Origin: Deltaproteobacteria bacterium | Lineage (GTDB): Bacteria; Myxococcota; Myxococcia; Myxococcales; Anaeromyxobacteraceae | Assembly (NCBI GenBank): GCA_016214955.1 | Contig: JACRMN010000007.1 | Location: 124,001 to 188,000 of the forward strand | Reading direction: 5' to 3' | DNA length: 64,000 bases | Shown here: positions 30,458-48,174 of the stretch, one piece after another | Numbering within the stretch: position 1 is the stretch's first letter | How the letters are laid out: every line of letters begins with the position of its first letter | Notes under the pieces: generated by a model | Databases searched by the model: none | Told to the model about the DNA's origin: nothing | What the model saw: only the letters and a program-made list of their open reading frames with translations | Made by a program: the position numbers and the translations under genes

Positions 30458-31692
30458 TCGGCCGGCGGCGGCTCGGGCGGCAGGAGCAGGCCGTCGTCGG
30501 TGAGGCGCACCGCGCCGTCACCGAAGTCCTGGCGCGACAGCTCGGCGATCTTCCGCACCACCTCGCCGCCCGGGTCGCGGCGCGGCCCGCCCGGCTTTTC
30601 CTGGCGGAACGCGTCGACGCGGCCGCCGCGCAGCGCGCCGCCGGGGCCGAGCCGCACCGTGAGGATGGGCGCGAGCGCGTTGGGGCCGGAGAGGTTGAAG
30701 GCGCCGTAGGTGGCGAAGTTGCCGAGCGAGTAGGCGATGAGCCGGCCCCGGTACAGCTCCATGCCCCGGGCCACGTGGGGCCCGTGGCCGAAGACCAGCG
30801 CCGCCCCCGCGTCCACCATGGCCCGGGCGAAGGCCCGCAGGTCGCCGCGGGACTCGCCGTAGAACGACTCCGGCCCGTGGGGCACGTGCTGGTGGGCCGC
30901 CCCCTCGGCGCCGCCGTGGAACGAGACCAGCACCAGCTCCACCTGGCGGGCCAGCGACGCCACCAGCGCGCCGGCTGCGGCCACGTCGCGCAGGTCCATG
31001 GTGGCGTCGGAGGTGGCGAAGGCCACCAGCGCCAGCGTGCGCCCCCGCACCGTCAGGCGGGCCACGTCGCCGGGCTCCCCGGAGTGGGCGATGCCGGCGG
31101 CGTCGAGCGCCCGCCGCGTGCTCGCCCTCCCCTCCGGCCCGAAGTCGCCGGCGTGGTTGTTGGCCACGCTCACCGCGCCGATGCCGGCCTGGCGCAGCAG
31201 CGCCGCGTAGCGGGTGGGCATGCGGAAGGCGTAGCAGTGGCCGGGCCTGGAGCGGGCGCACTTGGCGCTCGCGCCCCCTTCCAGCATGGGGCCCTCCAGG
31301 TTGCCGATGGCCAGGTCTGCGGCCGAGAGCACCGGGGCCGCCTCGGCCAGGAGGGAGCGCGCGTCGTCGGGCGGCAGCCCCGACTCCTCCGGAAACGTGC
31401 TCCCCAGCATGAGGTCCCCCACCAGCGCGAGGGTGATGTCGGGCGGCGCGCCCCCCTCACCCTGCCCCTCTCCCCCCGCTGCGCTTCGCCCCGCGGAGGG
31501 AGAGGGAAAGGATCGTTCGCCACCGTGCTCGCTGTCTTCCCTCTCCCCTGCTTTTCGGGGGAGAGGGTCAGGGCGAGGGGGGAGAGCGTGAGGCGCGGTA
31601 GCGGTCGGGGTCGGAGTCGGGGTCGCGCCACTCCCGGCGTGCGCGCACGCCCCCGCCACCGCCAGCGCCGCCACCCACCCGATCCTTCTCAC
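30094..31692 (-). CDS. CapA-like metallophosphatase-fold protein with in-frame palindrome insert and antisense tail
   Basis: The 532-residue frame has a signal sequence, a Thr/Pro linker, and a CapA domain (PF09587) from about residue 86: ITLALVGDLMLGS, VSVANNHAGDFGPEG, LVLVSFHGGAEG, ALVFGHGPHVARGMELYRGRLIAYSLGNFATYG. CapA proteins are linked to poly-gamma-glutamate capsule and related envelope polymers. Two oddities: residues before the domain are encoded by a 132-bp palindromic repeat, and the last ~120 residues (low-complexity Ser/Arg/Pro) run antisense through the NlpC-like gene because no stop occurs earlier. The domain itself ends where the overlap begins. GTG start at 31692, three bases after the upstream M23 gene. 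Confidence 0.82.
   Translation of the reverse strand: MRRIGWVAALAVAGACAHAGSGATPTPTPTATAPHALPPRPDPLPRKAGEREDSEHGGERSFPSPSAGRSAAGGEGQGEGGAPPDITLALVGDLMLGSTFPEESGLPPDDARSLLAEAAPVLSAADLAIGNLEGPMLEGGASAKCARSRPGHCYAFRMPTRYAALLRQAGIGAVSVANNHAGDFGPEGRASTRRALDAAGIAHSGEPGDVARLTVRGRTLALVAFATSDATMDLRDVAAAGALVASLARQVELVLVSFHGGAEGAAHQHVPHGPESFYGESRGDLRAFARAMVDAGAALVFGHGPHVARGMELYRGRLIAYSLGNFATYGAFNLSGPNALAPILTVRLGPGGALRGGRVDAFRQEKPGGPRRDPGGEVVRKIAELSRQDFGDGAVRLTDDGLLLPPEPPPADQRPSGTAMPPAGSPKPSTARSRRALPSSTAATRAGSMRPKPAKSSPASAGSPSRARARSGLLRCAPPGARPVEGARRSSTARATPRPPRWRKTTAPSARTSSTSPTWVTPSSALPLRLRS
31451..31582. repeat. 132-bp palindromic element (MITE/REP-like) inside the capA-like gene
   Basis: Terminal inverted repeats of 26 bp (31451-31476 and 31557-31582) differ at two positions. 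Each end also folds as its own CCCTCTCC/GGGAGAGG hairpin. Its length is exactly 44 codons, so the host frame is preserved; it encodes a Gly/Ser/Pro/Glu-rich linker between signal and domain. A related hairpin occurs at 36984-37012. Confidence 0.75.
31602..31629 (-). repeat. GACCnC hexamer tract in the capA-like signal region
   Basis: On the minus strand, units GACCCC, GACTCC, GACCCC, GACCGC encode the TPTPTPTATA linker immediately before the palindromic element. Confidence 0.55.
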
Positions 31693-31695
31693 GCC

Positions 31696-45491: not shown

Positions 45492-46487
45492 TCAGGCGGG
45501 TGGTGGGCTCGCCGAGGCCTCCGGTTCGGCGTCCTCGCGGAACTCGCCGTCGCCGCCGTAGGCCCAGATCCGATCGCGGCCGGCGCGCTTGGCGCGGAAG
45601 AGCGCCTCGTCGGCGCGCCGCACCAGGGTCTCGGGCGTGGTGACGTCGCCACCCGGGAAGGCCGCCACGCCGAAGGAGGCGGTGACGCTCACCTCCGGCC
45701 CCTGGCTGCCGGGCTCGTCCGCGTCCACGACGAAGAGGTGGCCGGCGATGGCCCGGGCGATGCGGCGGGCCACCGGCAAGGCGCTGGCGAAGGGCGTGTG
45801 GGGCAGCAGCACCGCGAACTCCTCGCCGCCGTAGCGCGCCGAGACGTCGTGGTCGCGCAGCGAGTTGCGGATGAGGATGGCGGTCTCGCGGAGCACCTTG
45901 TCGCCGAAGGGGTGGAGCCAGGTGTCGTTGATGGCCTTGAAGTGGTCGAGGTCGATCATCACCAGCGAGAGCGGCCCGCCGTAGCGGGCGGCGCGGCCGA
46001 ACTCCTCGCGCAGCCGGGTCTGGAAGGCGCGGTGGTTGTAGAGGCCGGTGAGGCCGTCGGTGACCGAGAGCAGCTCCAGCTTCTCGTTGGCGTCGCGCAG
46101 GTCGTCCTGGAGCTGCTTGATGCGCAGCATGGTGGCCACCCGCGCCAGGATCTCCTCGGGGTGGGCGTCCTTGCCCAGGTAGTCCTCGGCGCCCAGGCGG
46201 AGCCCCTTGAGGCGGGCCGCCAGGTCGGACTGGGCCGAGAGGATGATGGCCGGGACGAAGAGGTGGCGGGGGAGCACCTTGCGGAAGCGGAGCACGTCGG
46301 CGCCGCTGCCGTCGTCGAGCACCATGGACAGCAGGAGCAGGTCTGGCGGGCTGGCGACGAGCTGGGTCTGGGCGCTGGAGCGGTCCGAGGCGAAGGTCAC
46401 GTCGTAGCCCGCGCCGCGCAGCACCTCGCCGATCCGGTCGGCCTGGACCGGAGAGTCCTCCACCACCAGAACCTTGCCCGTGGGCAT
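45492..46487 (-). CDS. Diguanylate cyclase with degenerate receiver domain
   Basis: A 331-residue protein: receiver-like domain (residues 4-120), a short linker helix, then GGDEF domain (about 140-305). The active-site loop is GGEEF (220-224), the substrate region DHFKAINDTWLHPFGDKVL is present, and the product-inhibition site RDHD lies at 211-214, so c-di-GMP synthesis with feedback is expected. In the receiver, the acceptor position reads PPDLLLLSMVL with Ser 54 in place of Asp, while the acidic pair Glu 10/Asp 11 and Lys 106 remain. It is therefore unlikely to be switched by phosphorylation. TGC-TAACCT lies seven bases before the ATG. Confidence 0.93.
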   Translation of the reverse strand: MPTGKVLVVEDSPVQADRIGEVLRGAGYDVTFASDRSSAQTQLVASPPDLLLLSMVLDDGSGADVLRFRKVLPRHLFVPAIILSAQSDLAARLKGLRLGAEDYLGKDAHPEEILARVATMLRIKQLQDDLRDANEKLELLSVTDGLTGLYNHRAFQTRLREEFGRAARYGGPLSLVMIDLDHFKAINDTWLHPFGDKVLRETAILIRNSLRDHDVSARYGGEEFAVLLPHTPFASALPVARRIARAIAGHLFVVDADEPGSQGPEVSVTASFGVAAFPGGDVTTPETLVRRADEALFRAKRAGRDRIWAYGGDGEFREDAEPEASASPPPA

Positions 46488-46494
46488 CGCGGTC

Positions 46495-46503
46495 AGGTTA
46501 GCA
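46495..46503 (-). promoter_or_regulatory. Extended -10 of the diguanylate cyclase gene
   Basis: On the minus strand TGC-TAACCT ends seven bases before the ATG at 46487; no ribosome site lies between. It predicts a leaderless message separate from the RNA candidate upstream. Confidence 0.45.
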
Positions 46504-46574: not shown

Positions 46575-46720
46575 ACAAAGGGAAAGGGCCGCCGGCTTGC
46601 GCGGGCGGCCCCTTCTTGAAAGTGCCGAAGCAGGGAGAGCCAAGGAGGGCGGTCGGCCCATCCCTGCTTCAGCGACCCCGCTCCCGGGCCCGGGAGCGAG
46701 GCTTCCTTGGAACCGCCATA
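46575..46720 (-). ncRNA. Candidate structured RNA upstream of the GGDEF gene
   Basis: Read on the minus strand, the region starts with GGCGGTTCCAAGG, then a hairpin over the palindrome 46679-46698 (extendable to 11 pairs around a GGCC loop), then a 13-pair stem (46661-46673 with 46624-46636, one G-U), and finally a GC stem followed by TTTCCCTTT. GGCGGT and CCAAGGA of the 5' end can pair with ACCGCC and TCCTTGG inside the second loop, an arrangement that would make a pseudoknot. It does not match the riboswitch or 6S patterns I know. No clear promoter was found, so an RNA is plausible rather than proven. Confidence 0.5.
46586..46611 (-). terminator. Terminator hairpin of the RNA candidate
   Basis: GGGCCGCC and GGCGGCCC form an 8-bp stem; on the minus strand TTTCCCTTT follows directly. 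It would end the upstream transcript about 100 bases before the GGDEF start codon. Confidence 0.7.
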
Positions 46721-46830
46721 GACTCTAGCACACGAACACCTGCTGCCTAGACCCATCCACCCGACCCGCGGCCACCTGCCTGAGTGCCGCCCCGCTTGGG
46801 TGGTCGACCCCTCCGGGGGGCCGGAGTCCC

Positions 46831-48174
46831 TCAGGCCAGCCGCGCCAGCACCGGCTCCGGGATGACCGGCGCCAGCCCGCCGCCGCCCAAGATGTTCACG
46901 ATGGGCGAGGCGGCGGCGCGGACCACCGAGCCCCTCGGCCAGGCCGGCCCCAGGCCGGCGTAGGTGGAGACGTCGCGGACGAGCTGGCCGGCGAAGGTCC
47001 CCTCCGGCGTGATGCGGGTGGCCGGGCGCCAGGCGGCGAAGATCCGCTCCTGCACCACGAAGCCACCGCCGCGGGTGTCGGCCAGCGCCGCCTCCACGCC
47101 GCGGGCCCACTCCTCCTCGCCGAGCTCGGCGCCCAGCAGCACGCTCTTGCCGCCGTAGTCCCAGCTCCGCTTGAGCACGAAGGCCTTGCGGTCGGCGAGC
47201 AGGCGCGGCACCAGCCCGGCGTCGAGCCGGCGGGTCCAGGGGATGCGGAGGGCCGCGCCCCGCTCCTCCTCGTCGAGGCCGGCCAGCGCCGCCAGCGCCG
47301 GGTCGTCGGCGCACTCGGAGAGGCGGGCGAAGAGGGCCTTGGCCTCGAGCAGCCCGTTCACGGGGTTGGCGAGGATGAAGCGGCCCGGGTGGCGCAGCGC
47401 CTCGGCGAAGGGGCTGTCGGGCGGGGTGTTGTGGGCCCAGACGTGCCGGTAGAGGAGCTCCCACTCGCCCGGACGGCAGTCGGCGGGCGTGAGGTTCTCG
47501 ACCCGGTGGCCCATCTGGCGGAAGTGCTCGGCCAGGCGGCGCAGCTCGCCGATCTGGGCGTCGCCCGGGCGGGCCACGATGGCGATGGCGGGCCGGGCGC
47601 GCGTGCCGCCGCGCAGTGCGTGGTAGGCCGCCAGCGTGCGCCGGAACTCCTCCATGTTGCTGCCGCACTCGGCCACCAGATCCTCGGCCACCCGCGGCGG
47701 CAGCCCGCGCTCGCGCGCCGCGGCCCGGAGCCAGGAGTGGGCCGCCAGGTCGGCGTAGGCCGGCATCGCGGGGATGGTGGCGTTGAGCTCCAGCGCGCGG
47801 GCCGGCGCGCCGGGCTCGCCGGGCCGCAGGAAGTCCACGCGGGCCACCAGCGCCGGGAGCGGCGCCTCGTCGAAGAGCCGGGCCATGGCCTCGGCCTCGA
47901 GCCCCTCGAACGGCCCCAGCAGCGCCTCGCGGTCGCGGGCGTCGCCGTGGGCCAGGAGCGCCCGCGCCAGCTTCACCGCGCCGGAGAGCAGGGCCCGGGC
48001 CTCGCGCGCCAGCCTCTCCAGCTCCTCGGGGGAGAAGGGCTCGGGCTCGGCCACCAGCGGGATGGGCACTACCGTCCCGTCGGGCTTGCGCACGCTCATG
48101 CCGCCGCGCCAGGCGTCCTCTGCGGCGGCGCGGCCGATGCGCTCGAGCGCTGCGGCGTCGAAGGGAAGGGTCAT
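46831..48174 (-). CDS. ATP-grasp-like protein of unknown function
   Basis: A 447-residue soluble protein. The middle (VDFLRPGEPGAPARALELNATIPAMPAYADLA) and the late block (FVLKRSWDYGGKSVLLGAELG, then GGGFVVQERIFAAWRP) resemble the Lys/Gly-rich nucleotide loop and strand order of ATP-grasp ligases of the glutathionylspermidine-synthase/circularly permuted type. The conserved Asn/Glu pair expected near ELNATIPAMPAYAD is also suggestive. A ligase forming an amide bond is possible, but I cannot name the substrate. ATG at 48174 follows GAGGAG. The neighbours give no clue. Confidence 0.6.
   Translation of the reverse strand: MTLPFDAAALERIGRAAAEDAWRGGMSVRKPDGTVVPIPLVAEPEPFSPEELERLAREARALLSGAVKLARALLAHGDARDREALLGPFEGLEAEAMARLFDEAPLPALVARVDFLRPGEPGAPARALELNATIPAMPAYADLAAHSWLRAAARERGLPPRVAEDLVAECGSNMEEFRRTLAAYHALRGGTRARPAIAIVARPGDAQIGELRRLAEHFRQMGHRVENLTPADCRPGEWELLYRHVWAHNTPPDSPFAEALRHPGRFILANPVNGLLEAKALFARLSECADDPALAALAGLDEEERGAALRIPWTRRLDAGLVPRLLADRKAFVLKRSWDYGGKSVLLGAELGEEEWARGVEAALADTRGGGFVVQERIFAAWRPATRITPEGTFAGQLVRDVSTYAGLGPAWPRGSVVRAAASPIVNILGGGGLAPVIPEPVLARLA

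Follow-up and report, generated by a model that had tools for sequence, protein, structure and literature searches.

A candidate small RNA gene between two conserved genes

Our analysis of 64,000 nt of genomic DNA (hereafter, the window) from an Anaeromyxobacter-like soil bacterium reveals an intergenic site that, on the minus strand, folds into three hairpins, the last of them terminator-like, and that lies between a gene for a 447-aa protein and a gene for a receiver-GGDEF response regulator. The reading that we tentatively prefer is an independent, non-coding small RNA (sRNA) gene, specific to the species or to a close lineage, whose product would act in trans as an antisense RNA without Hfq. 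It is plausibly an ordinary species-specific regulator, and not a switch of the adjoining c-di-GMP gene. If transcribed, the site would represent an sRNA gene of recent origin, inserted into an otherwise conserved gene pair of a bacterium with no detectable Hfq, and would offer a small, clean case for studying the origin of sRNA genes and Hfq-free action. The features of the locus, in the direction of the minus strand, are as follows:

46831 to 48174, minus strand: upstream gene, 447 aa (family-wide conservation)
46749 to 46744, minus strand: weak −35 element, TAGGCA, with a 16-nt spacer to the −10 element
46722 to 46730, minus strand: candidate extended −10 element TGCTAGAGT, TG-C-TAGAGT (sequence resemblance)
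46703 to 46718, minus strand: single-stranded 5′ segment GGCGGTTCCAAGGA, complementary to parts of the H2 loop or stem (candidate for a pseudoknot)
46675 to 46702, minus strand: hairpin H1, a near-perfect 12-bp palindrome (folding)
46624 to 46673, minus strand: hairpin H2, 20 bp with one bulge and apical loop CCGCCCUCC (folding)
46577 to 46615, minus strand: hairpin H3 and its tail, intrinsic-terminator-like (folding; a type recurrent in the order)
45492 to 46487, minus strand: downstream gene, receiver-GGDEF response regulator (Pfam Response_reg and GGDEF)

The product of the upstream gene, which we take to resemble glutathionylspermidine synthase, has no Pfam match at E 0.001.

Folding of the candidate RNA

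The initial annotation had described three inverted repeats in order on the minus strand, the last of them terminator-like, and folding confirms all three as H1, H2, and H3. Specifically, the minus strand from 46718 to 46577 folds at −92 kcal/mol, better than 200 of 200 dinucleotide shuffles (z = −5.36). The plus strand folds at only −77 kcal/mol, an asymmetry consistent with a minus-strand RNA. H3 (46615 to 46582, minus strand) comprises 14 bp with a C·C mismatch and a GCAA loop, and is accompanied by the tail TTTCCCTTT at 46585 to 46577, which ends 90 bases before the ATG of the GGDEF gene, in agreement with the distance of about 90 bases given at the outset.

The background for these values was 464 kb of the same genome (the 64-kb window plus 400 kb sampled), from which the best 144-nt segment of each of 78 intergenic regions was taken and folded in both orientations, yielding 156 strand-segments. 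The candidate RNA ranks third of the 156 by z score (−5.09) and only about 13th of the 78 regions by raw fold energy, the latter because all intergenic DNA is GC-rich here. The fold is thus exceptional in order, beyond mere GC-richness, yet not unique: strong intergenic folds are common in this 74% GC genome, and several other stretches fold comparably. In particular, the intergenic segment at 31423 to 31695 of the window (minus strand), which carries strong inverted repeats of the CCCTCTCCC / GGGAGAGGG type, is the second-best strand-segment of the sample (z = −5.3), and the top z score (−5.6) belongs to an intergenic segment elsewhere in the sample (L202, 11396 to 12424, minus strand) that forms a large branched structure.

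No long open reading frame fitting the candidate RNA was found. Two small open reading frames are unsupported: one of 20 aa begins ahead of the point at which the RNA would probably start, and one of 32 aa begins within H2 and runs through the terminator.

Candidate promoter and terminator

The candidate −10 element ends 5–7 bases ahead of the expected RNA start (about 46716 to 46714). The candidate promoter agrees with the consensus at 8 of 12 positions, plus the TG, which is resemblance only, and a stricter sigma-70 scan reported no promoter at 46749 to 46722. In a sample of the genome, TANNNT hexamers occur upstream of genes at ~24 times their density in coding DNA, and the position with the most of them is −13 from the start codon; the tRNA-Val promoter of this genome reads TTGACA-N17-TAGAAC.

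At the other end of the site, H3 combines the hairpin and the U tract of an intrinsic terminator, the U tract TTTCCCTTT being interrupted. Hairpins of the H3 type, GGGGCCGxCC...GGCGGCCCTTTT, are found immediately past stop codons elsewhere in the order, and the occurrence of true terminators among the matches at the H3 position supports a terminator reading of H3. A simple terminator scan did not detect H3, probably because of its internal mismatch.

Proposed action of the RNA

From the arrangement of these sequence elements, we tentatively infer that the promoter is used and that a transcript exists. Transcription would proceed from the sigma-70-type promoter at 46749 to 46722, would start near 46715, and would stop near 46577 at terminator H3, producing an RNA of ~135–140 nt in which a short 5′ tail precedes three hairpins. 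Of these, H1 would have a protective role, H3 would end the RNA, and H2 would engage its targets in trans as an antisense element. Specifically, the H2 apical loop CCGCCCUCC is C-rich, is 9 nt long, and contains an anti-Shine-Dalgarno-like CCUCC, which would pair with a Shine-Dalgarno-like GGAGG in the mRNAs targeted and keep ribosomes from binding. This pairing mechanism, for which that one 9-nt loop is the basis, could operate by analogy with alpha-r14/NfeR1, for which it is established that CCUCC-bearing loops block ribosome-binding sites (PMC10746234). The action would be independent of Hfq: no Hfq was detected in this genome's assembly (95.6% complete), and its absence has been reported for myxobacteria in general (PMC5568312). 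A search of the openly accessible literature for Anaeromyxobacter sRNAs found nothing relevant.

The 5′ segments had also been suggested to pair into the second loop. Complementary segments do exist, CCAAGGA with UCCUUGG of H2 (7 nt) and GGCGGU with ACCGCC of H2 (6 nt), but the two pairings cross each other and so cannot both form as a simple helix, and the pseudoknot is only possible. The 7-nt match departs only mildly from chance expectation (p about 0.02–0.03), and forming it would cost ~8.5 kcal/mol of broken H2 against a gain of ~9.5 kcal/mol. The 6-nt pairing is energetically cheap, and part of its GGCGGU side may fall upstream of the RNA start. We regard as very unlikely the more elaborate scheme of a lineage-specific sRNA whose 5′ tail is pseudoknotted to the anti-Shine-Dalgarno H2 loop, so that the targeting loop would be masked until freed.

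Comparison with relatives

The flanking gene pair is retained across most of the family, with a spacer of 348 nt here vs 101 nt and 115 nt in two congeners (G001 and G002); six further genomes that we examined have spacers of 36 to 163 nt. Much longer spacers occur in other relatives, several of which appear to hold another reading frame in between. An additional ~230–250 nt is private to this genome among the genomes compared. Global alignment of the congener spacers with the 348-nt spacer is poor except immediately ahead of the ATG, so that the boundaries of the extra segment, and its size, are approximate. The 101- and 115-nt spacers of the congeners contain no T-run terminator. As a separate observation, the same-pair spacer of one relative (L191, G025:C70:177747-178371) carries an AT-richer segment twice (GCGCTCGGTGAGCACGAGAAACGGTGAAAGGC...), perhaps a small mobile repeat.

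BLAST searches found no homologue of the candidate RNA in the genus, in 145 genomes of the order, in 195 genomes of the phylum, or in phage and plasmid collections, and a search of viral contigs with its exact pattern found none. A single-sequence covariance model recovered only the query itself in the family, in the 145 order genomes, and at orthologous loci, and the candidate RNA is absent from all orthologous gene-pair loci searched. The remaining weak covariance-model matches (E 0.006–0.9) look like coding sequence or isolated hairpins, and the non-self matches that we inspected are terminator hairpins, fall within or close to long open reading frames, or correspond to the H1 palindrome. 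Since there is no homologue, there is no covariation among relatives to count. An origin from a mobile element was considered and rejected: the segment is single-copy and has no convincing flanking repeat.

A possible 3′ untranslated region or non-functional segment

The main rival to an independent sRNA gene, less likely in our judgement but a serious contender, is that the site is the 3′ untranslated region belonging to the upstream gene (46831 to 48174), with a terminator and two stabilising hairpins that would stop read-through into the GGDEF gene, and from which processing may release a 3′-UTR-derived RNA. The two genes are on the same strand with terminator H3 between them, the same terminator type stands directly after stop codons in relatives, and the lack of a T-run terminator in the congener spacers would allow this lineage to have gained insulation. 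The terminator, however, lies ~215–250 nt beyond the stop codon; a promoter-like element and two more hairpins intervene, exceeding what termination needs; and relatives do without such a terminator.

An unlikely explanation is that the site has no function and consists of GC-rich intergenic palindromes, derived from an insertion or a local duplication, with a chance terminator-like end. Its presence in this genome alone, the ~230–250 nt by which the spacer exceeds those of the congeners, the near-perfect palindrome of H1, and the comparable folds of other intergenic stretches are in keeping with this explanation. Against it, the segment is single-copy and has no flanking target-site duplication beyond 7 nt, and the order in which its promoter-like element, its hairpins, and its terminator follow one another on a single strand is a functional one.

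Relation to the GGDEF gene

The initial annotation had left the choice between a small RNA and a leader acting on the GGDEF gene. The sRNA option is the better supported, with a candidate promoter upstream and a terminator at the end; the leader option finds no support. The GGDEF gene has its own −10 element, TAACCT, at 46500 to 46495 (minus strand), seven bases before the ATG, and the GGDEF genes of both congeners, which are without the candidate RNA, have TACCCT likewise exactly seven bases before the ATG. This is the spacing of leaderless starts, so the GGDEF mRNA is probably leaderless, and the possession of its own conserved promoter marks the candidate RNA as a separate unit. A cis-acting leader or riboswitch controlling the GGDEF gene would account for the position of the candidate RNA upstream of that gene on the same strand and for a terminator within the would-be leader, but we consider it very unlikely: in three species the gene has its own −10 element, here with a terminator 90 bases upstream; the family members examined retain the gene pair without the candidate RNA; no riboswitch in Rfam matches; and no alternative anti-terminator pairing that would open H3 was seen. 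The candidate RNA has no bearing on c-di-GMP sensing.

Comparison with known RNA families

No family of Rfam 15 matches the candidate RNA at gathering scores. The view that it is neither GEMM nor 6S RNA is borne out by this result and by the sole 6S (RF00013) match of the genome, which lies on another contig (G000:C13:69171-69363, 62.4 bits). The candidate RNA resembles 6S RNA as a small structured non-coding RNA, but is without the long open-bubble rod of 6S. The best relaxed Rfam match is BjrC68 (RF02353), at 26.7 bits vs a gathering score of 39; the likeness is a terminator hairpin with a GCGCAAGC tip, and since the terminator part alone aligns, the match reflects a shared terminator shape. 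Among the nearest known systems, the trans-acting sRNA alpha-r14/NfeR1 (PMC10746234), with its anti-Shine-Dalgarno loops, shares with the predicted RNA a length of ~100–150 nt, three hairpins, a CCUCC in an apical loop, and a separate intergenic gene. NfeR1 differs in having CCUCCUCCC in unpaired regions of all three hairpins, whereas CCUCC stands in one loop here, and in being a family common to rhizobia, whereas the candidate RNA is in no relative.

The candidate RNA shares with the myxobacterial Pxr sRNAs, which work without Hfq (PMC5684412, PMC5568312), an intergenic position, three stem-loops, a terminator hairpin, and a C-rich loop, and a sequence at the base of H2 agrees with Pxr in 11 of 13 nt (CTTCGGCACTTTC vs Pxr CTTCAGCACTTCC). 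Retrieval by the published probe sequence yielded Pxr from 59 genomes, all in one family of the order (f6) that is not the family of the window, and two covariance models were built, one of SL1 and one of the full RNA. That the candidate RNA is a diverged member of the Pxr family is rejected as extremely improbable, since both models fail to recognise it (SL1 model, 6.5 bits on the minus strand with filters off, equal to noise matches; full model, nearly equal on the two strands, 14.2 and 13.5 bits), the characteristic sigma-54 promoter (TGGCAC-N5-TTGC), adjoining nla19, and conserved C7 loop of Pxr set it apart, with no such promoter upstream and no nla19 beside the candidate RNA, and the real Pxr-like RNA of the family is located elsewhere.

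Pxr-like RNAs in the Anaeromyxobacter family

The Pxr SL1 model identified clear relatives in ten genomes of the family of the window (E about 2e-4 to 2e-5), and an eleventh genome gave a weaker match. These Pxr-like RNAs, at L261 to L271 (about 1450 to 1620 of the match-sense strand), have a sigma-54 promoter of the TGGCAC-N5-TTGC type, one long hairpin whose loop carries a run of C, and a T-rich end, and on these sequence features are apparent Pxr homologues in the Anaeromyxobacter family. At L261, the Pxr-like RNA lies between a preceding regulator-like gene, whose C-terminus we read as that of an NtrC-type regulator, and a following short receiver gene; no copy of the latter was found in the assembly that contains the window. 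Anaeromyxobacter is not mentioned in the searched text of the two Pxr papers (PMC5684412, PMC5568312). At the syntenic place in two congeners (L281 and L282, about 1378 to 1480 of the match-sense strand), a sigma-54 promoter TGGCACCCGGCTTGC stands ahead of a long hairpin that has a C-rich loop and a stem of different sequence; this hairpin, which receives no score from the Pxr model, is possibly a far-diverged Pxr.
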